From a virus, in IMG/VR virus record IMGVR_UViG_3300035698_003630, positions 1-24,468 of that record: a stretch of DNA of 24,468 nucleotides; one strand, written 5' to 3'. This document shows positions 8,160 to 24,468 of the stretch, one piece after another. Every line of letters starts with the position of its first letter. The first letter of the stretch is position 1. The translations under genes and the position numbers were made by a program. A model generated the notes under the pieces. The model was not told the DNA's origin and did no database searches. It saw nothing but the letters and a program-made list of their open reading frames with translations.

Positions 8160-8511
8160 TGGTTTATCAATGGCAATATCAGCATTGACCACAGCAACAT
8201 TACCACCTAAATTTATAGCGTGGGGAACAGGCACAACAACTGCAACAGCAGCTAACACAGCGTTAGAATCTGAAACAGCGACAATAAGATGTACAGGTAC
8301 GGTTACGATTATAACAACAACTACAACTAGCGATACATTACAAGTAACAGGAACTATGACAGCAACGGCAGCATATACAATTTCAGAAGTAGGACTATTT
8401 GACACAAATGCGGCAGGTCTTATGTTCGCAAGAATAACGTTTACCGGAATTGCACTAAACGCATCAGACAGTATAGCGTGGACAATAAAGGCAGTAGCAG
8501 ATCAGGCATAA
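8131..8511 (+). CDS. Phage structural protein, GTGTT-type (tail fibre-like family)
   Basis: This 126-aa beta-rich, Thr/Ala-rich protein has the pattern of a widespread phage structural family: FIAWGTGTTTATAANTALESE (the fixed part is WGTGTT followed by NTALESE, about residues 30-50), a strand-rich centre, then ISEVGLFDTNAAGLMFARITF (about 89-109) and a final DSIAWTIK strand. Relatives are usually annotated as tail-fibre or minor structural proteins. ATG 8131 has a GGAGG site seven bases upstream and a TAA directly before it in frame. It opens the accessory block between the head adaptor and the rest of the neck genes. A terminator-like hairpin follows. Confidence 0.65.
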   Translation: MADTGVVVNSGLSMAISALTTATLPPKFIAWGTGTTTATAANTALESETATIRCTGTVTIITTTTTSDTLQVTGTMTATAAYTISEVGLFDTNAAGLMFARITFTGIALNASDSIAWTIKAVADQA

Positions 8512-8516
8512 ATTAA

Positions 8517-8545
8517 GGGAGTGGGCAACTGCTCCCTATAGTTTT
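8517..8545 (+). terminator. Hairpin terminator or attenuator
   Basis: GGGAG (8517-8521) pairs with CTCCC (8532-8536), and the stem can extend inward by T-G, G-T and G-C pairs to close a GCAA tetraloop. The following TATAGTTTTATTT is T-rich though interrupted. It lies six bases after the stop codon and before the LamG-like gene. The weaker T-tract suggests partial termination. Confidence 0.6.
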
Positions 8546-8588
8546 ATTTGATTCATGATAATAATTTTAGATAACAGGGAGAGATATT

Positions 8589-9488
8589 ATGGCTTCAATA
8601 ACACCTAAAAATGGTCGTGCGGCTTTTATTACAGCACATGACCCACATACTTATTGGGAGTGTAATACCACAAATCTCGGTACTAATTTTGGACATGACG
8701 CTACTTCTAGTGGTGGCGAGAATTCTAACATAGCTTCGGGGGATATATCTATCTCAGATAGTTATGAGGGAATGAACAATCAGAACGACCCAGTTGTAAG
8801 TGGCGATTTTGACAGATGGATTGTTACCGATGCTTGTGCATTGGTTTATATCCCCGCTGGTCTTACTCACAGCCAACATTATGGTTTATGGCATAACGGT
8901 GGTGGCACTAATGCTCAAGGTGCCGGTCTCCGAGCAACAACAACTGGTGTTGAAATTAGTTGTACACATAATAATGCTTCTCAAGTAATGGATACATTGA
9001 TTTATGAAATACCTGATGCAAGTTTGCCGGGTTGGTTTGCTATTGGCTGGCAATTTGCTTCTAATGATGGAAACCAAGGGGATATGGGATTATGGATTAA
9101 TGGTGTTTGTGTAAGAAGCGGTACTCGTATTTATACTCTTGACTATGGTTCGGGAAACCCTAACTTTGGTAATTTTGGTGGAAATGACCCTAATGCATCG
9201 TCTGTTATAGATCCTTCAAGTTATAGTGGTGGAGATTGGGGAGCTAATGCCGCAATTACTAATAGTGGCATTCTTATTGCTAATTTTACTTGTGATAATC
9301 CAACCGATAGTGGCTCTGGATATTCATCACCTGGTGCAGGAAATGATTTTTATACAGATTATTATGATGAACATGTCGAATCAGGAAGTACATCATATTC
9401 CAAAACAGTAATAGCAATGATGAATTTTGTAGAAAAAAGAAAGGTTATAGTAGGCAAAACGACAAAAATATTTAGAAATAGAAAATGA
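8589..9488 (+). CDS. LamG/concanavalin-like structural protein with repeat C-terminus
   Basis: This is a 299-aa probable virion surface protein. Residues about 10-255 look like a jelly-roll of the LamG/concanavalin type: aromatic and Gly/Asn-rich strands, WFAIGWQFASNDGNQGDMGL followed by WINGVCVRSG near the middle, and a long loop rich in Gly, Asn and Asp. The fold assignment is tentative. The last 28 residues (272-299) differ in character: basic, beginning KTVIAMMNF, with a second KTT exactly 18 residues later. That matches the 18-residue repeat of the 1223-aa protein encoded 1.8 kb downstream. The start has a GGGAGA site six bases upstream. Codons end in T more often than in neighbouring core genes, hinting at separate acquisition. 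Confidence 0.6.
   Translation: MASITPKNGRAAFITAHDPHTYWECNTTNLGTNFGHDATSSGGENSNIASGDISISDSYEGMNNQNDPVVSGDFDRWIVTDACALVYIPAGLTHSQHYGLWHNGGGTNAQGAGLRATTTGVEISCTHNNASQVMDTLIYEIPDASLPGWFAIGWQFASNDGNQGDMGLWINGVCVRSGTRIYTLDYGSGNPNFGNFGGNDPNASSVIDPSSYSGGDWGANAAITNSGILIANFTCDNPTDSGSGYSSPGAGNDFYTDYYDEHVESGSTSYSKTVIAMMNFVEKRKVIVGKTTKIFRNRK
9402..9485 (+). repeat. Single 18-aa repeat unit plus partial unit at gene 3' end
   Basis: This codes for residues 272-299 of the LamG-like protein: one full 18-residue unit and ten residues of a second. The unit shares K1, T2, V3, A5, M7 and N8 with unit 34 of the large repeat protein, and the next K falls exactly 18 residues later. At DNA level, 9402-9428 matches 14041-14067 inside the large repeat gene at 21 of 27 positions by eye. 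Confidence 0.65.
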
Positions 9489-9555
9489 AAAAATAATTAT
9501 ATTATTAATAACAGCGGTGGGTACAAAGATTTCAGTTTGATATAAGGGGTGACGT

Positions 9556-11271
9556 ATGGCAACAAGTTTTGATTTTAACGGCACAGATAATTATGTAAAT
9601 ATTATAGACGACCAAGTTTATGACGTTGCAACGTGGACTGTCTCTTATAATGACGGAACAGATAAGACGTGGGACACAGGTGATGCAGCAGTAACAGGTT
9701 TATTACAACTAATCAATGAGACAAGAATGAAATTAGCCTATGATGGAACTGATTATTTTGGGGATAAAATAAGAAGTCTGACAGGGAAAAACTCTGATGA
9801 GTCAACTGTAGTGTATATCCCATTTGACAAATCTTCTGGTTCGGTAGCCGACAGCACGTTCACTCAAACTGATATGGTTATAAACTGGACAACTCCTACT
9901 ATAAGTTTCACAGGCACGAATTATAATGCTAATAGTGAAGCAACACTCAATACTGCTTTAGGGAATGTCACTTCTGGTAACTATGATAAAATCACATTAA
10001 CTGGCAGTTTTTCTATAACTGGGTCAAAAGACATTAGTGGAATAAACGGATTAACTATAGACTTTAATGGGTACACAATCACATATAATTCTGGGGCATC
10101 AGGAGACTATTTCTTCACAATAGAGAACTCAAACACTACCAACTTAAAAGTAATCTCACCAAAACTTGTAAGTCAGAATGACCAGACTAGGTCTAATGGC
10201 AGGGGTGGAAGTGATGGTTCAAACAGACATGGTTTTTACATAGGGGGAAGTGTTGTTAGTAATCTAGTTTTTACAAATCCTCATTTCACAAATTTAGAGT
10301 TTGGCTTTATGATTGCTGGCAAAAGTAACGACCCAGCTAACTCATCAAACATTTTTATTGATGGAACATTTACTACTATAGATACCTTTCAGTCCATATA
10401 TGTTCAGTATTGTAGAAACCTTTATGTTGACACTTTAACAAATGATAACTCAATGGTCGTAAATGGGTTAGACCATCAGTTTTATGGAGCAGCCAAATCG
10501 AGGACATACATTAAATCTATAACTGCTGATAATGTAGATGCTACCTCAAATTGCATGTATGCTCTTCAACTAGAAGTTTCACCAGATGAGTCTAGTGCAG
10601 AGGCATACATAAACTATGCTAATATCCTTGGCAGTTTAAAGCCAGCGTGGCTTCATGGTGGGAAAATGGTTATAAACACCTTAGACTTTGATACTACTCT
10701 CACTGGCACAAATCCATATATAAGGATAGCTAGATATGGACAACTTATTGTTAACGGTGGTACTTGGACTGGGTCTGGTGGCTACTATTTATTTGATAGA
10801 TACAATGAGACTGGTGATGGAAATGAGTGTATCATAATTAGGAATGTAACTATGGACATTACTATTGATTATTATATGATTAACTATACAGATTTAGATT
10901 ATCCAATGTTCGTTCATTTTGAAAATTGCGATATAACCTTTGATTCTAATAATGATAAACCTTTTAAATTCTCACCTTCGGCAAATGTGTTCAAGGATTG
11001 TGATTTTACTTTGGGGTTTGAAAATAGTATTTTCTGGGATTTTTATAATGGTGCTACAATGACATCGATTAACTGTACATATACTGATACAGGTGGATTA
11101 TTTACTCCAACTGATGCAGATGCAACTTTTGTTACTGATGCTAATTATAATACGCAGAAAACTATTGAAGGAACCGTATTAGATTCACAATGGGAAGTTG
11201 ATGATCTTCAGGGATCGTTAGTATTATCAATCAATAGGGTTGTAAAGATATTTAAAATAATCGATATATAA
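9556..11271 (+). CDS. Right-handed beta-helix (tailspike-like) protein with repeat C-terminus
   Basis: This 571-aa protein probably folds largely as a parallel beta-helix, as in phage tailspikes and pectate lyases. After an N-terminal 110-120 residues, a typical entry segment follows (EATLNTALGNVTSGNYDKIT, 128-147, then ITGLSID-like strands GLTIDFNGYTI at 165-175). Further rungs include LVFTNPHFTNLEFGFMIAG, IIIRNVTMDI, VHFENCDITFDS and VFKDCDFTLGF. I see no obvious catalytic triad, so glycan binding is as likely as cleavage. The last 23 residues depart from the helix: SLVLSINRVVKIFK matches the 18-residue repeat of the next gene in exact register. ATG 9556 has AAGGGGTG four bases upstream. 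The position suggests a surface appendage. Confidence 0.65.
   Translation: MATSFDFNGTDNYVNIIDDQVYDVATWTVSYNDGTDKTWDTGDAAVTGLLQLINETRMKLAYDGTDYFGDKIRSLTGKNSDESTVVYIPFDKSSGSVADSTFTQTDMVINWTTPTISFTGTNYNANSEATLNTALGNVTSGNYDKITLTGSFSITGSKDISGINGLTIDFNGYTITYNSGASGDYFFTIENSNTTNLKVISPKLVSQNDQTRSNGRGGSDGSNRHGFYIGGSVVSNLVFTNPHFTNLEFGFMIAGKSNDPANSSNIFIDGTFTTIDTFQSIYVQYCRNLYVDTLTNDNSMVVNGLDHQFYGAAKSRTYIKSITADNVDATSNCMYALQLEVSPDESSAEAYINYANILGSLKPAWLHGGKMVINTLDFDTTLTGTNPYIRIARYGQLIVNGGTWTGSGGYYLFDRYNETGDGNECIIIRNVTMDITIDYYMINYTDLDYPMFVHFENCDITFDSNNDKPFKFSPSANVFKDCDFTLGFENSIFWDFYNGATMTSINCTYTDTGGLFTPTDADATFVTDANYNTQKTIEGTVLDSQWEVDDLQGSLVLSINRVVKIFKIIDI
11200..11268 (+). repeat. Single 18-aa repeat unit plus 5 residues at gene 3' end
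   Basis: This encodes residues 549-571 of the beta-helix protein. Residues 553-567 align without gaps to positions 5-18 and the next position 1 of the large protein's repeat; unit 37 (KIVTASLIMGINR...) shares S6, L7, I11, N12, R13 and V15, and the following K is in place. Only the first four positions are unlike the consensus (DDLQ). Confidence 0.6.
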
Positions 11272-11295
11272 ATAGCTTAGAAGGAGGGAGTAAAT

Positions 11296-14200
11296 TTGAG
11301 TTTTGTTATTTCATCATTTTCAGGTAATGTTGATAATTATATAGGAGTAGATTCTTCCAATACAGAAGTTTCACAATCATTTTTATGCGATGGTCATTAT
11401 CTGGCAGAACAACTAAAGGTTACTGTACTTAAAGGAGCAGGGAGTGATGGTAATTGTTATGGTAGAATATACGCTCATTCTGGTACTTTTGGTACAAGTT
11501 CTGTTCCTACTGGTTCTCCTTTAGGAACTTCTGATGCAATAGATGTTGGAGATATGTCATCAGGCAACCAAGACTATACATTCACTTTTTCTACAAAGGT
11601 AGAATTACAAAAAGATACGCATTATTGTGTTGTTATGTATTTTGCAGGAACGGGTATTACATATTTAAGTAGGGATAGTACGACATCCCCTGAACCAGCA
11701 GGAAACTATGCAAGGAAATCAGGGTCTACTTGGAATGCTTGGGATGCAAGGGATTTTTCTGGTTATGAACTTAGTGGCATTGACGCGACAAGCACAACCG
11801 GTAAAACTGTTACAGCAACAATAGAGATTGCAGGTTCAACCATAAAAAAAGCCAGTAAATTTACTAATTTAATAATGAAGTTGAGTGGGAATAGAGTAAA
11901 TAAAATAAATAAGGCTATGTCCGTTGCATTATCTTTTCTTGTCAAAAAGGGTCGGTCTAACTTTAAGACGGTATCTGCAACGTTTGTACTTGGACGCGAA
12001 AAATTTAATAAGTACACAAAGTCGGTTGCCTCAACTTTTAGTTTGGCAAAAACTAAAACAATTAATGTTTTTAAAACAACCTTGGCAACAATGGAACTAT
12101 CTGTTAACGTGTTAAAAAACATCAAAAAATATACACTGGCAACTTACAAGCTAAGTATTGCGAAATCACAGAGGTTTGTAAAAGTGGTAACGGCAATCGT
12201 GAAATTGAGTACAACAAAGATTGTTAAGGTTTGTAAAACAACTATGGCTATGGTTTCACTTGTTAGTCAGGCTGTTAAAAGAACTATAAAATTTACATCA
12301 GTATCGTTTATGTCGTCTATAAGCCGTTTCACTACAAGCAAATTAACTAGGACAGTTAATGCAACACTCACACTTGGGATTTCAACTATTAAAAAGGTTA
12401 ACAAAACATCATCAGCAACGCTGAAACTATTGGCAAATAAGTTCAAAAAAACCTTCAAGATAGCATTGGTAACATTTGCAATTATATCCACAAAAGCAGT
12501 AAAGCTATCAAAATCTATAGTTGCAACAGCAAAACTTAGCACGAATACAGTTAAAAGGATAAGCAAAGCCACGTCGGCAACATACAATGTAGTGGTTTCC
12601 AAAACACGGACAGCCTTTAAATTAGTGGTCGCAACATTGACTCTTACTGGAAATAAAGTGACGAAAGTTTTTAAAATCTCGACAGCAAACATAAGTTTAA
12701 CCATAACGAGATTGTCTGGGATATTCAAGACCTCAACTATAAACTTTAAACTTTCAACAAATAGATTAACCCAGTTTTTTAAAACAGTAATAGCTAGTTT
12801 GATAACATCCGTAGTAAAATTGGTTAATGTAAATAAAATTACAACGGCAATTTTTAAGTTATCAGTTCAGACTGTGAAGAGGATAGTAAAACCAACAACA
12901 GTGATGTTCTTATTATCTATAAGCCGTTCTGTTTCGAGCTTGTTTGCAAAATCAGTAACGGTATCACTTGTGTTTGGATCTTCTACTATTAAAAAAATTA
13001 GCAAAGTATCGTCTGCAATAGTAAACTTTTCAACATCAAAATTGACAGGATCTTACAAGACAACAATCTTAAACCTTAAATTATCGGTAACAAAAGCTTC
13101 TGGGCTATTTAAAGAGGTAACCGCAACGTTTAAATTATCAGTGGCAAAAGCTGTAAAGGTTTACAAAGCTACGCTAGTATCGATAATGGTAGTGGTTAAT
13201 AAAATATTGAGATTTCCAAAGACTGTTACTTCAATATTAAAACTATCAACAAGTAAATTTAAAACATCTTTTAAATCAATTAGTGCAACGTTCTCACTAA
13301 TTGCAAACAAGACGACAAGAATTTTTAAAGTATCAACAGTAGATTTTAAACTGACCACAAACAGGTTGTCAAGGATTGCAAAAACCATAACGGTAACACT
13401 TAACTTATTAGTCACACGATCAAATATGTATTTTAAATCAGTTTTAGCTACATTGAAATTGTCGGCAAATAAAGTTGTAACCGTTGCAAAAATTATTCAA
13501 GTGTTATTGAAATTGTCAAGCACCAAGACAATTGGTGTTGCAAGAATGGTTTCGGCAAGTCTGACAATGACAGCACAAACTATTAAAAACATCATTAAAA
13601 CAAGCATGGTATCATTTGTATTATCCGCAAGTAGGGTTGTGTCTGGTGCATTTACTAAGACTGTAACAGCTACAATGAACTTGGGAGTTTCGACAGTTAA
13701 AGGAATTAGTAAAATAACCACTGCGATATTTAGTTTGCTTACATCAAGAACTACTAAAATTTACAAAACATCATCAGCAATATTTAATCTCTCAACAAAT
13801 AAATTAAAACAGTTTGCAAAGATTGTAACGGCTAGTTTGATAATGGGAATTAATAGAACTGTAAATGTTTTAAAGACAACTTCGGCAAATATCACCTTAT
13901 CGGTGGCTTCAACAAAAAGGTTCTTTAAAACCGTAACAACTAACTTTAATCTAGCACTTACAAAAACAATTAATATTTTTAAAACTTCAATTGTGAGTTT
14001 TGTATTATCTTTTAGTCGTGCAGTATCAGGAGCATACGCAAAAACAGTTACGGCAACCATGAATTTAAGCACATCAGCGGTTAGAAATATAAGGAAAATA
14101 AGCACTGCAACCATGAAGTTATCAGTATCAAGAATTGCAAAAATATATAAGACAACAACTGCGATATTTAAACTGTCAATAACGAGTTTAAAGGGCTATT

Positions 14201-14967
14201 CTAAGGAAGTTATAGTTAACATGACACTAGCTACCAATAAGACAGTAAAAGCCATTAAAACAACTTCTGTAGGCATAGGGCTATCTGTTACAAGGATAGT
14301 AAACATAATTAAAGCATCAACAGTAGAGTTTGTATTTTCAGTAACTAGAGTTTTAGCGAACCTTTACACAAAATCCGTTACTGCAACAATGAATTTCAGT
14401 GTTTCGACAATTAAGAGAGTACAGAAAATAACATCAATTGGATTGACGGTTTCAACCAATACAATAAAGAACGTAAACAAAATAACTTCATCAATTATAA
14501 ATTTAGCAGTATCAAGACAAAATAAACTATACAAAATCTCAACTGCTACATTAGGTTTTGTTGTAAGTACAGTTAAGGGAATATCAAAGACGACTGTAGT
14601 ATCGTTTATATTATCAGCAATACGATCTAATCTTTATACGAAAATAGTAACAGCTACAATGAACTTTGCCTCAACAGAATTAAAAAGAATTGGTAAGATT
14701 ACATCAGCAAGTTTAGATTTCAGCGTAAGCACAGCAAAGAAGATTTTCAGAACAGTAAGTGCGATATTCAATTGGGCGGTTACAAGATATAAATCATCAG
14801 GGTTAAAGTGTACAGTTTCGGTTGAAAGACGAACTACGACAACTCTAGTAGAACAAAGATCGATTGCATTAGGAATAGCAAAAGCATGGTGTGGAACATT
14901 AGTAGAGTTAAGAGGGAATACAATATCAGTAGAAAAAAGAACATTAGTGACGAGCGTGGAGGTATGA
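11296..14967 (+). CDS. Giant 55-unit 18-residue repeat surface protein
   Basis: This 1223-aa protein is the standout of the window. It starts at TTG 11296, five bases after an AAGGAGGGAG site. Residues 1-169 form a beta-sandwich-like head (IGVDSSNTEVSQSFLCDGHY, RIYAHSGTFGTSSVPTGSPL, THYCVVMYFAGT) similar to the 'choice-of-anchor R' type. Residues 170-1169 are 55 gapless units of 18 residues (five have 20), consensus K-T-V-T-A-T-hydrophobic-x-L-S-V-S-x-V-K-x-I-x. Position 1 is K in 52 units and R in three. Acidic residues are nearly absent. Residues 1170-1223 carry a 9-residue VExR repeat. The alternating pattern implies beta structure, such as a solenoid or fibrous shaft. I infer an appendage or adhesin binding an anionic surface polymer. 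No enzyme motif, signal peptide or clear membrane segment is seen. Confidence 0.8.
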   Translation: MSFVISSFSGNVDNYIGVDSSNTEVSQSFLCDGHYLAEQLKVTVLKGAGSDGNCYGRIYAHSGTFGTSSVPTGSPLGTSDAIDVGDMSSGNQDYTFTFSTKVELQKDTHYCVVMYFAGTGITYLSRDSTTSPEPAGNYARKSGSTWNAWDARDFSGYELSGIDATSTTGKTVTATIEIAGSTIKKASKFTNLIMKLSGNRVNKINKAMSVALSFLVKKGRSNFKTVSATFVLGREKFNKYTKSVASTFSLAKTKTINVFKTTLATMELSVNVLKNIKKYTLATYKLSIAKSQRFVKVVTAIVKLSTTKIVKVCKTTMAMVSLVSQAVKRTIKFTSVSFMSSISRFTTSKLTRTVNATLTLGISTIKKVNKTSSATLKLLANKFKKTFKIALVTFAIISTKAVKLSKSIVATAKLSTNTVKRISKATSATYNVVVSKTRTAFKLVVATLTLTGNKVTKVFKISTANISLTITRLSGIFKTSTINFKLSTNRLTQFFKTVIASLITSVVKLVNVNKITTAIFKLSVQTVKRIVKPTTVMFLLSISRSVSSLFAKSVTVSLVFGSSTIKKISKVSSAIVNFSTSKLTGSYKTTILNLKLSVTKASGLFKEVTATFKLSVAKAVKVYKATLVSIMVVVNKILRFPKTVTSILKLSTSKFKTSFKSISATFSLIANKTTRIFKVSTVDFKLTTNRLSRIAKTITVTLNLLVTRSNMYFKSVLATLKLSANKVVTVAKIIQVLLKLSSTKTIGVARMVSASLTMTAQTIKNIIKTSMVSFVLSASRVVSGAFTKTVTATMNLGVSTVKGISKITTAIFSLLTSRTTKIYKTSSAIFNLSTNKLKQFAKIVTASLIMGINRTVNVLKTTSANITLSVASTKRFFKTVTTNFNLALTKTINIFKTSIVSFVLSFSRAVSGAYAKTVTATMNLSTSAVRNIRKISTATMKLSVSRIAKIYKTTTAIFKLSITSLKGYSKEVIVNMTLATNKTVKAIKTTSVGIGLSVTRIVNIIKASTVEFVFSVTRVLANLYTKSVTATMNFSVSTIKRVQKITSIGLTVSTNTIKNVNKITSSIINLAVSRQNKLYKISTATLGFVVSTVKGISKTTVVSFILSAIRSNLYTKIVTATMNFASTELKRIGKITSASLDFSVSTAKKIFRTVSAIFNWAVTRYKSSGLKCTVSVERRTTTTLVEQRSIALGIAKAWCGTLVELRGNTISVEKRTLVTSVEV
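11803..14802 (+). repeat. 55 tandem 54-bp units (five of 60 bp), coding repeat
   Basis: I counted 55 units by aligning the K/R that opens each one. Units are 54 bp (18 codons) except those starting at 12289, 12889, 13597, 13981 and 14311, which are 60 bp. The sum, 55 x 18 + 10 = 1000 residues, fits exactly between residue 170 and the 54-residue C-terminal segment. The units have diverged at DNA level, though some stretches are still identical (13663-13682 and 14647-14666). Confidence 0.9.
14815..14964 (+). repeat. C-terminal 9-residue VExR repeat
   Basis: The last 50 residues of the large repeat protein contain VERR, VEQR, VELR, VEKR and VEV. Their glutamates fall at residues 1177, 1186, 1204, 1213 and 1222, intervals of 9, 18, 9 and 9. 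The missing position, 1195, is an alanine. The period is exactly half that of the main repeat. Confidence 0.7.
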
Positions 14968-14968
14968 G

Positions 14969-15265
14969 ATGGTAACACAAGTAACGATAGGTGATACGGT
15001 TTGGTTAAAAGGTGAGTTTAAAGACAGAACGGGGGCGTATAAAGACCCTGCATCAAGCTTGACAATGGTAAACATATACGACAAGGGTGAAAGTTTGATT
15101 TCAACCTTATCAGCAAGCCAAACAGATACGGGAAAATACGAACGAGATTACGAGATACCAACAGGGTATGATTATCTGATATTTGAGTTTACAGGCGAAC
15201 TGGACGGGTTCACGGCAAAGAGAAGAGACACATTGGACTGTAAGTTTAGATCATCACCAGCATAG
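14969..15265 (+). CDS. Small Ig-like neck-region structural protein
   Basis: This 98-aa beta-sandwich-like protein opens IGDTVWLKGEFKDRTGAYKD and continues with MVNIYDKGE, a TGKYERDYEIPTG turn and FEFTGELDGF. This is the pattern of a common small phage protein (GDTV-L-A-F, IYD, TG-Y--D--LP, G-LDG) found beside neck genes. It starts one base after the stop of the large repeat gene, with GTGGAGGT six bases upstream. Its function is not established; an accessory neck or connector subunit is the simplest reading. It marks the return from the accessory block to conserved neck genes. Confidence 0.65.
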   Translation: MVTQVTIGDTVWLKGEFKDRTGAYKDPASSLTMVNIYDKGESLISTLSASQTDTGKYERDYEIPTGYDYLIFEFTGELDGFTAKRRDTLDCKFRSSPA

Positions 15266-15272
15266 GAGAATT

Positions 15273-15755
15273 ATGGCTATAATAAGCAGCAAGGATTTCT
15301 TTAAACAGAATGCAGGTGTTAAAAAAGACAGTAAGTTTTGGAAGGGATATTATTCCAACGTACCAAGAGTTAAATACGTCCTAGAAGAGAACGAGAAGTT
15401 AGCATTAAGAGAAGCCGGGAAACTTATTAAAAAAGAAATGACAAAACTTATCAAGTCTAAAATCAAAAAAAGAACCGGCACACTTTTAAAGTCAAGAGGG
15501 TATAAAGTAATCAAAAAAACCAAGTCGGTCAATGTTGGGATATTCGGAGCAAGGAACAATCGTGGACGTGCATTTTATTCGAAGTTTTTAGAATTTGGAA
15601 CGAGTAAAAGAAGAGCAACACCTTTTATTGAACCTGCGGCGGCACAAAACATCCAAGGTATAAAAACCGCAATTGCAAAAGCTATGGGAAATGTCACAAA
15701 AGAAATAGTTGTACCGGTGAAAACAGACGAAATAATTTATGGAGATGACAAATGA
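15273..15755 (+). CDS. HK97 gp10-like neck / tail-joining protein
   Basis: This 160-aa protein belongs to the HK97 gp10-like family of neck proteins that help attach tails to filled heads. The diagnostic C-terminal box is clear: FLEFGTSKRRATPFIEPAA (about residues 106-124), preceded by VNVGIFG and a strongly basic region (KLIKKEMTKLIKSKIKKRTG). The frame is open from 15183, but ATG 15273 has AGGAG four bases upstream and begins just after the previous stop, so I chose it. It overlaps the next gene by four bases (ATGA). In most related phages this gene follows the head adaptor directly; here about 7 kb of accessory genes separate them. Confidence 0.88.
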   Translation: MAIISSKDFFKQNAGVKKDSKFWKGYYSNVPRVKYVLEENEKLALREAGKLIKKEMTKLIKSKIKKRTGTLLKSRGYKVIKKTKSVNVGIFGARNNRGRAFYSKFLEFGTSKRRATPFIEPAAAQNIQGIKTAIAKAMGNVTKEIVVPVKTDEIIYGDDK

Positions 15756-16161: not shown

Positions 16162-16869
16162 ATGAAGAAAGTTGCATTAGTGGGATATGCAAACAGTTGG
16201 AGAGAAGCACCATGGGAAGATCCGACCTTTGAAATTTGGATAATGAACAACATGTACAACATTGCACCGAGATTCGACAGGGTGTTTGATATTCACGATT
16301 TAGAGGAAATAAAAAACAGACCGCAAAAACCAGACGAAGAAAATCATTATGAGACATTAAAAACCTTCAAGAAACCTGTTTACATGCAAGATCATTACGA
16401 AGATATACCAATGAGTGTTAAGTATCCGCTAGAAGAAATGATAAAAGAGTTTTACATTCCGGCAATGGGAGACAAGTTATTCACTACATGTTCAGTAACA
16501 CATATGTTATCATTGGCAATTTCAGAAGGATACGAAGAAATACATTTATACGGAATTGATGAAGCTGTCGATTCAGAGTATGTGTATGAATTGCCGGGAG
16601 TCTTGTATTGGCTAGGTGTTTGTTATGGTAGAGGAATCAAACTTGTTATAAGCCAGAACTCACCTTTATTGAAAGGGTTTTGGATATATGGGTACGAGGA
16701 CAAACCAAAACAACAACATTTAAGTTTTATGGAAACCGAACTTAAAAGATACAAGTCTATCCAGGACACGGCAATTACTAAACAACGGTTATATCGAGAT
16801 GAAGAAAAGAAATGCGAAGGTGCAGCACTAATGATGGAACATTTAATAAAACTAGAAACAAAAATTTGA
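16162..16869 (+). CDS. Rossmann-like phage protein (MptE/DUF115- or GT42-like)
   Basis: This 235-aa protein is not a standard tail component. The N-terminus VALVGYANSW (4-13) looks like the first strand and loop of a Rossmann-type fold. FEIWIMNNM and RFDRVFDIHD (about 23-46) follow, then TTCSVTHMLSLAISEGYEEI (108-127) with HLYGIDEAVDSEY (128-140). The T-S---M--LAI--GY-EI-LYG-D pattern resembles MptE/DUF115-like proteins and CST-type (GT42) sialyltransferases. Similar proteins occur in other phage late operons, to my knowledge without a proven function. Residues 185-235 are charged helix. It lies between the tail terminator and tail tube genes. Sugar-nucleotide use is a hypothesis only. Confidence 0.6.
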   Translation: MKKVALVGYANSWREAPWEDPTFEIWIMNNMYNIAPRFDRVFDIHDLEEIKNRPQKPDEENHYETLKTFKKPVYMQDHYEDIPMSVKYPLEEMIKEFYIPAMGDKLFTTCSVTHMLSLAISEGYEEIHLYGIDEAVDSEYVYELPGVLYWLGVCYGRGIKLVISQNSPLLKGFWIYGYEDKPKQQHLSFMETELKRYKSIQDTAITKQRLYRDEEKKCEGAALMMEHLIKLETKI

Positions 16870-17075: not shown

Positions 17076-17615
17076 ATGGCAGCTGGAGACATAATTTTAG
17101 GTGACGGAGTATTCGCTATAGGTCCAACCACAAGTCAGACAGTTGATATTGCCTTAACAAGGGGCGGCGGTGTTTTTACCGTTGAAAGGGATAATCGACT
17201 AATTGAAGCAGATGGTGACTATGGCCCAGTAAAAGATCGTATAAGAGTAATAAAATCAGTGGCTAAATTAAACATGAAAACACTGGAACTTTTACCTTAC
17301 GATTATGACAGATACTATCCTGGAATGTCAACGACCGTAACGGCAGCATTAACAGCCGGAACAACCGCGACAATAACAGGTGTAGGACTGACAACAAACG
17401 TTACTACAAGCGACTATGGAATAGCATCATGGACAGGTTATACAAGAGCAGGGTCAAGTGTTTATATAGAATTGCAACAGGCTATAAATCTTGAAAATAT
17501 TGATCTGTCAATGGTAGATAAAGAAGAAATACTAAACGAACTGACATTTACAGCGGCATACTTATCAAGTACAAGAAATACAGAGCCTTGGAAAATAATT
17601 TACACAGGCGCGTAA
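17076..17615 (+). CDS. Major tail tube protein, copy 1
   Basis: This 179-aa protein matches a phage tail tube family beginning MAAGDIILGDGVFAIG, with the conserved core IEADGDYGPVKDRIR (about 43-57) and the ending NLENIDLSMVDKEEIL then TEPWKIIYT. It forms the stacked rings of the tail tube around the tape measure. The ribosome site is GGAAG-like and weaker than that of the paralogue directly downstream. By hand alignment the two copies are about 75% identical: about 85% at both ends, but only about 55% in the middle (residues 74-136). No sheath gene is present, which supports a siphovirus tail. Confidence 0.88.
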   Translation: MAAGDIILGDGVFAIGPTTSQTVDIALTRGGGVFTVERDNRLIEADGDYGPVKDRIRVIKSVAKLNMKTLELLPYDYDRYYPGMSTTVTAALTAGTTATITGVGLTTNVTTSDYGIASWTGYTRAGSSVYIELQQAINLENIDLSMVDKEEILNELTFTAAYLSSTRNTEPWKIIYTGA

Positions 17616-17627
17616 GGAGGTAATACT

Positions 17628-18167
17628 ATGGCAGCAGGAGATATAATTTTAGGAGATGGCGTATTTTCAATAGGAGCAACAACCACAGCAACGGCAATCG
17701 CATTGACCCGTGGTGGTGGAACGTTCAGTGTAGAACGCGACAACCGACTAATAGAAGCAGATGGAGATTATGGACCTGTCAAAGACAGAATAAGAGTTAT
17801 AAAATCAGTTGCGAAACTGAATATAAAAAGTCTTGAATGGCTAGCGGATAAATATCAGGACTATTTCCCTAGTTTGACAGCATCCTTAACAACCGCTATA
17901 ACAAGTGGCGTAACTGCAACTATCACAGGTAGAGGCTTGACAACCAATATCACAACTCAAGACTACAATATTGTTACATGGACTGGTTATACACGAGCTA
18001 AAACAAGTGTGTTTATTCAGTTAGACAATGCAATAAATCTTGAAAATATAGATTTTTCGATGGTAGACAAAGAAGAAATATTGAATGATCTAACTTTCAC
18101 AGCGGCTTATGGTTCGACTTCAAGGACAACAGAACCTTGGAAAATAATTTATACAGCGACAAGCTAA
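17628..18167 (+). CDS. Major tail tube protein, copy 2 (tandem paralogue)
   Basis: This second 179-aa tail tube protein starts 12 bases after copy 1, with an ideal TAAGGAGGT site. The N-terminal block and the C-terminal NLENIDFSMVDKEEIL and TEPWKIIYT are nearly the same as in copy 1. The central part, which should include exposed loops, has diverged (for example WLADKYQDYFPSL against LLPYDYDRYYPGM). Both frames are intact, so neither copy looks like a pseudogene. Either both enter the tube, or one is specialised for a tail end or used under different conditions. A terminator-like hairpin follows. Confidence 0.88.
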   Translation: MAAGDIILGDGVFSIGATTTATAIALTRGGGTFSVERDNRLIEADGDYGPVKDRIRVIKSVAKLNIKSLEWLADKYQDYFPSLTASLTTAITSGVTATITGRGLTTNITTQDYNIVTWTGYTRAKTSVFIQLDNAINLENIDFSMVDKEEILNDLTFTAAYGSTSRTTEPWKIIYTATS

Positions 18168-23834: not shown

Positions 23835-24468
23835 ATGTCAGACATTATAATCAAAAAAGATTATATAAAAAAATATGATATTATCAATATTAAAGGGGGT
23901 ATATCGGCAAAAGACGTATATGCTAAATATAAACCAGATGCATTTTGTAATCTTGCTTTATATGCCTCTGATGTTATGACTAATATCACTAGACTTGAAG
24001 ATGAAAATGTGAAGGCGGGATACCTATTTTCAGATGAAGTATTAGGTATTAAAGGTGACAATGAAATTGTTTGGTGTCATTATAGTGAAGCCTTTGCCGA
24101 TAAAAAGATTAGAGACTGTGTGGGAGGATCACCAATTTTGGGTATGAACGATAAGATAGACATAAAATGGGGGAATAAACATTCATCTTATCTTGACCGA
24201 AACTGGATGAGAACTGCAATAGGGGATAATGACTCCGAATTCATTATGCACACAAGCGATGAGGCTCTCACAATCCCAGAGCTTGCTACAATAATGACAT
24301 ATAACAAACATTGCAAAAATTCTTTAGCCTGTGATGGCAGTGGTAGCAGTCATCTTCAAATGGGGCAAAGGGTATTAAAAGAAAGCACAAGAGCAAATGT
24401 GTCATGGTTCTTAATTTATTTTGACAAAACACAAATGTTTATCGACGTAATGACCGACCAGATATTAA
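23835..24468 (+). CDS. Phosphodiester glycosidase-domain protein, likely lysis enzyme (partial)
   Basis: This frame starts at ATG 23835, five bases after a GGAGGG site, and stays open to the window end (211 complete codons), so its C-terminus is missing. The visible part resembles the phosphodiester glycosidase family (NAGPA, Pfam PF09992): CVGGSPILGMNDKID (95-109), RTAIGDNDSEFIMHT (126-140), ALTIPELATIM (144-154) and ACDGSGSSHLQMG (165-177), corresponding to the family's R-TAIG and N-DGGGSS motifs. The usual DGGG is DGSG here. Family members cut phosphodiester-linked sugars. Following a holin-like gene, it may act on wall polymers as an endolysin or endolysin module. The missing C-terminus could hold a wall-binding or second catalytic domain. 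Confidence 0.7.
   Translation, partial: MSDIIIKKDYIKKYDIINIKGGISAKDVYAKYKPDAFCNLALYASDVMTNITRLEDENVKAGYLFSDEVLGIKGDNEIVWCHYSEAFADKKIRDCVGGSPILGMNDKIDIKWGNKHSSYLDRNWMRTAIGDNDSEFIMHTSDEALTIPELATIMTYNKHCKNSLACDGSGSSHLQMGQRVLKESTRANVSWFLIYFDKTQMFIDVMTDQIL

Follow-up and report, generated by a model that had tools for sequence, protein, structure and literature searches.

An array of 55 basic 18-residue repeats encoded among the head-tail genes of a phage: candidate shaft of an accessory adhesin

Among phage adhesion shafts whose structure is known, coiled coils, triple beta-helices and beta-spirals predominate. The triple beta-spiral of the adenovirus fibre is a shaft of short repeats with alternating hydrophobic residues and a period of 15 residues. 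A closer parallel to the locus described here is provided by the NPS proteins of 936 and P335 lactococcal phages, whose BppU_N-type domains are thought to form a collar round the portal-adaptor junction (PMC6669499, PMC10747895). This collar projects shafts or fibres tipped with carbohydrate-binding modules (CBMs) and, in the case of TP901-1, has been reported to be non-essential (PMC6669499, PMC10747895). BppU of TP901-1 is a baseplate protein, and in siphophages CBM decorations are found on structural proteins, tail tubes among them (PMC6669499).

The DNA analysed here comprises 24,468 nucleotides (IMG/VR record IMGVR_UViG_3300035698_003630, positions 1 to 24,468) and is referred to as the window. 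Like NPS fibres (e.g. TP901-1 ORF51), it would encode an optional accessory fibre among head-tail genes. Its late operon follows the usual gene order and opens with terminase, portal, ClpP-type protease, HK97-type capsid, adaptor and head closure genes; these are followed by five adhesion-type genes, neck1, terminator, two major tail proteins and tape measure, with a holin-type gene further on. The first-pass annotation had placed the repeat gene in a virion operon, which fits the surrounding genes running from TerS to tape measure. The features discussed below are as follows:

6747..7676, + strand: head-tail adaptor (phrog_442) containing an additional inner domain
7664..7999, + strand: head closure protein, bordering the accessory block on the left
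8131..8511, + strand: 126-aa protein (phrog_5417), a family that precedes the repeat gene in relative L113 too
8589..9488, + strand: adhesin-type protein of 299 aa with partial terminal repeat unit YSKTVIAMMNF
9556..11271, + strand: adhesin-type protein of 571 aa with partial terminal repeat unit SLVLSINRVVKIFK
11296..14967, + strand: repeat protein of 1223 aa, fourth of the five block genes, TTG start behind AAGGAGG, stop included
11296..11802, + strand: N-terminal domain of the repeat protein (residues 1-169), acidic, pI 4.5
11803..14802, + strand: 55 repeat units (residues 170-1169), pI 11.7, 162 K+R and 9 D+E
14803..14964, + strand: C-terminal cap (residues 1170-1223) with short T/V/E-K-R repeats (by eye)
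14969..15265, + strand: 98-aa Ig-like-looking partner (phrog_18294, E 2.2e-7), in the place of the relatives' BppU_N-like partner
15183..15755, + strand: neck1/tail completion protein, right border of the accessory block

L417, the closest relative found, has a capsid protein 59% identical to that of the window and is collinear with it from TerS to the major tail protein (33-64% identity). The five genes at 8131-15265 are absent from L417, in which head closure overlaps neck1 (L417:13393-14272). Hence, the five genes make up an accessory insert, ~7.2 kb in length, placed between head closure and neck1. The array itself is absent from all 16 loci found through the capsid, and the adaptor's inner domain of ~110 residues is apparently common to the window and L417. 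Elsewhere in the window, tandem major tail proteins are encoded at 17076-17615 and 17628-18167 (both phrog_885; L417 has one), and a 235-aa protein at 16162-16869, between the terminator and tail protein genes, is 56% identical in L417 and gives a weak MptE-like match (E 0.07). A phosphodiester glycosidase domain (NAGPA, E 6e-8) lies at the record's end (23835-24467), after the holin-type gene. Within the block, the product of 8131..8511 also matches phrog_4176 (tail fibre), and similar proteins were recognized by eye in the relatives L061, L031, L169 and L379. When scored with the window profile, the C-terminal tails of both adhesin-type proteins (8589-9488 and 9556-11271) outscore all of ~900-1,000 shuffled tails each; these partial terminal units may serve in docking to the array or may be a trace of recombination. 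A general rule that upstream adhesins end in a repeat unit was tested on the relatives and found unsupported, being true of the window alone.

Residues 170-1169 of the repeat protein divide without gaps into 50 units of 18 residues and five of 20, the latter beginning at residues 332, 532, 768, 896 and 1006 (units 10, 21, 34, 41 and 47). Segmentation was performed with an iterated position matrix, and rebuilding from the coordinates returned exactly the 55 consecutive basic units first annotated at 11803-14802, with K at position 1 in 52 units, R in three, and the five 20-mers. The proposed 18-residue period was likewise confirmed by a lag-18 identity of 0.231, above every one of 1,000 shuffles (≤0.142 at any lag from 10 to 39). 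The approximate consensus is K-[TI]-[VT]-[TS]-A-T-[FL]-[KN]-L-S-V-[SN]-[KR]-[VIL]-K-[KR]-[IV]-F, and hydrophobic residues account for 93% of the units at position 5 (A/V), 100% at 7, 96% at 9, 62% at 11, 73% at 14 and 80% at 17. This agrees with the hydrophobic or small positions listed by the first-pass annotation except for position 3, which is hydrophobic in 47% (V/T/S) and as often T or S. The array as a whole carries a net charge of about +153 over 1,000 residues. Comparison of codons between units reveals conservation above that expected from composition at position 1 (0.49 vs 0.36) and position 2 (0.49 vs 0.29), whereas position 3 is hardly conserved (0.35 vs 0.32), from which it follows that the units are old and have been kept by protein-level selection. 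Order shuffles showed unit lags 11 and 13 to be enriched (P 0.0002 and 0.0024), and units 34-35 resemble units 41-42, indicating duplication of a block of ~7 units; the array has thus grown at least partly by block copying. Similarity between adjacent units is, if anything, lower than that between distant ones (P 0.03 at lag 1, with no correction for the 14 lags examined).

Known families were searched with the repeat protein as well as with its repeat. Pfam yielded no match to the 1223-aa protein up to E 1, hexapeptide, curlin/CsgA and BppU_N profiles included, NCBIfam none up to E 0.1, and PDB sequences none with the whole protein, so that the earlier statement that the units belong to no named repeat family stands as far as Pfam and NCBIfam are concerned, as does, by the lack of any Pfam hexapeptide match, that of a missing hexapeptide signature. 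The single PHROG match is a weak one to the unnamed phrog_20262 of unknown function (E 1.5e-5, 70 of 146 positions), covering residues 198-267 or roughly four units. A PDB profile match to 8ga7 (THR5, E 1.3e-4), which we take to be a designed helical repeat protein, was set aside since it spans 52 positions only and the profile is compositionally biased. Using tblastn with the whole protein, the consensus and relatives, no family member was found in 50,697 phage records, a blank weakened by the low-complexity filter; a weak match for L015 (E 0.04) fell on a short hypothetical ORF of the record on the opposite strand, with no array. The repeat profile gave no hit in 398 genomes from one phylum or in 301 from a second, in searches run without a positive control, and no literature on such repeats was found among open-access papers. 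Hence, the repeat is apparently undescribed in the literature and databases searched.

The hexapeptide-type left-handed beta-helix shares with the window unit its length, one coil being 18 residues, but hydrophobic residues in the window occur at positions 3, 5, 7, 9 and 11 and then at 14 and 17 instead of every six residues, and there is no profile match. Alternating hydrophobics, and in the relatives a Gly after the strand core (position 11), are reminiscent of the triple beta-spiral; the period, however, is 18 with steps to 20 and 22 rather than 15, the G/P turn is absent from most window units (position 11 is mostly V/T/I), and the window is strongly basic. The curlin repeat profile of curli (CsgA) is unmatched by the array. 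Structure prediction, a check that the first-pass annotation had proposed for 6-10 units, succeeded in part: the window's AF2 model is all-strand without helix but unusable at pLDDT 42 and was not considered further, while 13 units of relative L231 (16-row alignment) gave a regular, helix-free model of low confidence (pLDDT 58, pTM 0.53). Here, each unit forms one 11-residue strand at positions 3-13 followed by a 7-residue loop. With one strand per unit, this model lends no support to the equation of one unit with one left-handed beta-helix coil; one unit would instead be half a coil. VIA-align superposes the low-confidence model on the SufB/SufD beta-helix, a flattened, right-handed parallel fold of two sheets, with Z 14.3 and rmsd 2.9 (191 of 232 residues), a Z score well above those of unrelated rows, whereas every Foldseek E-value against the PDB exceeds 0.1 (best 0.12). 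At 3-10% identity, with no Pfam match and an unrelated function, the likeness to SufB/SufD is, as modelled, a fold resemblance only. From this model we infer that the array would be a flattened two-sheet beta-helix in which the unit is half a coil. If this is right, there are two units per coil, the 55 units would make ~27 coils with a length of roughly 13 nm, and both edges would carry rows of basic residues, those of positions 1, 13, 15 and 16. Coils built of two units could leave an odd/even alternation in the sequence; this was looked for across the window units and not seen.

Arrays of the same kind, with units of 18, 20 and 22 residues, are borne by ~20 other distinct IMG/VR contigs of uncultured phages, which were found with degenerate DNA patterns combining two or three units at a spacing and confirmed with unit-built profiles. 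One row of the search alignment (A4) is a hand-typed composite of an L061 unit; it entered the searches and the relatives-only profile but not the folding. The relatives' consensus reads K-A-[LF]-T-A-T-L-S-F-x-G-A-L-x-[RK]-[RK]-[TI]-x, and their units comprise 66 of 18, 15 of 20, six of 22 and five of 19 residues, a stepping mostly by two as expected if strands lengthen in register. The number of repeats differs widely among phages. In seven arrays with clean limits, 0-3 D+E occur over 113-439 residues (G001 was left out of this count, its figure taking in the N-terminal domain), and the basic content of most relatives is just 7-12 per 100 residues; the searches turned up no close relative of the lysine-rich variant seen in the window. 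The case for homology is weakened by a reversal control: because the repeat pattern is nearly palindromic, the window HMM gives scores to reversed ORFs as well, and that of L407 is even higher than in the forward direction. In a column-permuted control, none of 300 permutations matched the true order in seven of the 11 relatives, and one of 300 did in L413, with less clear results for L169, L113 and L392 (6, 10 and 22 of 300). A shared order of positions is thereby supported for most relatives but not for all, and common ancestry of all array members is likely, though not proven.

Several relatives have a binding-type domain ahead of the array. A LamG domain lies within the L031 repeat protein (PF13385, E 6e-17), and inspection by eye suggested a LamG-like region ahead of the array in L377 as well as jelly-roll-like N-termini before the arrays in L398, L407 and L386. 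The N-terminal domain of the window protein resembles that of L386 by eye (GQSF...KLYASTG) and is probably a jelly-roll binding domain. Short non-repeat caps also end most of the relatives' repeat proteins. Glycosyltransferase-like genes were noted by eye near the repeat gene of L377 (L377:1474-2520) and of L231 (L231:2323-3573, minus strand); their arrays, rich in Ser/Thr, could be glycosylated. Downstream of the array, 10 of ~16 readable genes encode either a BppU_N-like protein or a head-tail adaptor/connector: BppU_N-like or phrog_1627 proteins follow in L061, L031, L089, L097 and L399 (Pfam BppU_N scores below the cut-off), and adaptors or connectors in L015, L231, L392, L413 and L406, those directly after the array in L392, L413 and L406 belonging to phrog_442, the family of the window's own adaptor (6747-7676). 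A portal is found downstream in L388, small proteins without family in L401 and L183, and other genes in L113, L112 and L189. The window's 98-aa partner gave no match to the BppU_N-like profile in hhalign.

Seen at the level of genes, the likeness to NPS consists in a BppU_N-type domain linked in several relatives, a probable carbohydrate-binding domain and a shaft in between. NPS, however, is a single chain running from BppU_N through a coiled coil to the CBM, whereas in the relatives a gene of its own encodes the BppU_N-like part or an adaptor gene stands in its stead, and the chain of the 1223-aa protein shows no N-terminal BppU_N beta-sandwich in the Pfam search. Furthermore, the binding-type domain of the window is N-terminal, and in place of the coiled-coil shaft a basic beta repeat is predicted, both low-confidence AF2 models being all-strand without helix. 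By analogy, the window's block would be a split version of NPS with a new shaft.

The reading we favour, tentatively and as a good possibility rather than a probability, is that an accessory virion adhesin has the repeats as its shaft, a rigid, positively charged and beta-structured element probably attached to the neck or collar. The N-terminal domain, probably carbohydrate-binding, would sit at one end of the shaft and the short cap at the other, and attachment near the neck would probably be mediated by the adjacent small Ig-like partner or by the head-tail adaptor. In this way, the shaft would hold the binding domain off the particle, and its basic edges might stick weakly to polyanionic host surface polymers, making a first contact likelier. 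This reading must be tempered, as proximity to neck genes does not make a gene product a neck protein. The same adhesive shaft might instead sit on the tail tube or baseplate as a tail or side fibre, for which the adhesin-type domains, the phrog_4176 match of the 8131 protein and the baseplate role of TP901-1 BppU itself (PMC6669499) can be cited; in view of the adaptor, connector or portal neighbours in six relatives and the position of the window's block between head closure and neck1, we regard this placement as unlikely. Arrays lying flat on capsid or tube, with their domains binding host or mucus glycans, would have a precedent in the CBM decorations that siphophages carry on tail tubes and further structural proteins (PMC6669499), but long arrays of varied length suggest a projecting shaft and the neighbours point to the connector, which renders such a coat improbable.

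Two further explanations were considered. The array's net charge and the near-absence of acids in the relatives would suit a nucleic-acid-binding polycation, located inside the head or travelling with the DNA, which compacts it or aids ejection. The joining of arrays to lectin-type domains, exemplified by the LamG of L031, the low basic content of most relatives and a strand alternation implying a folded core, however, make this role distinctly improbable. A structurally idle simple repeat that expanded neutrally, as low-complexity sequence, would account for the widely varying repeat number and the duplicated block of ~7 units; it is hard to reconcile with conservation at codon positions 1 and 2 but not 3, adjacent units that are not the most similar, a frame open across 3.7 kb and the same pattern in ~20 contigs, and is given very little credence.

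Returning to the neck-attached adhesin, a more specific proposal, which is doubtful when all its parts are taken together, is that of an undescribed repeat family, distributed across uncultured phages, in which each unit is one strand of a flattened beta-helix with basic edge ladders, yielding a length-adjustable polycationic shaft that an Ig-like collar protein anchors to the head-tail adaptor as a split neck fibre. This kind of adhesin device is already known; the shaft module and the split arrangement appear to be new. A regular, acid-poor basic repeat present in ~20 contigs, without Pfam or NCBIfam entry and often beside neck genes, would constitute a new shaft module. Its simple unit could be used to build structures whose length can be adjusted, and the family would give a name to many 'hypothetical' genes of metagenomic phages.
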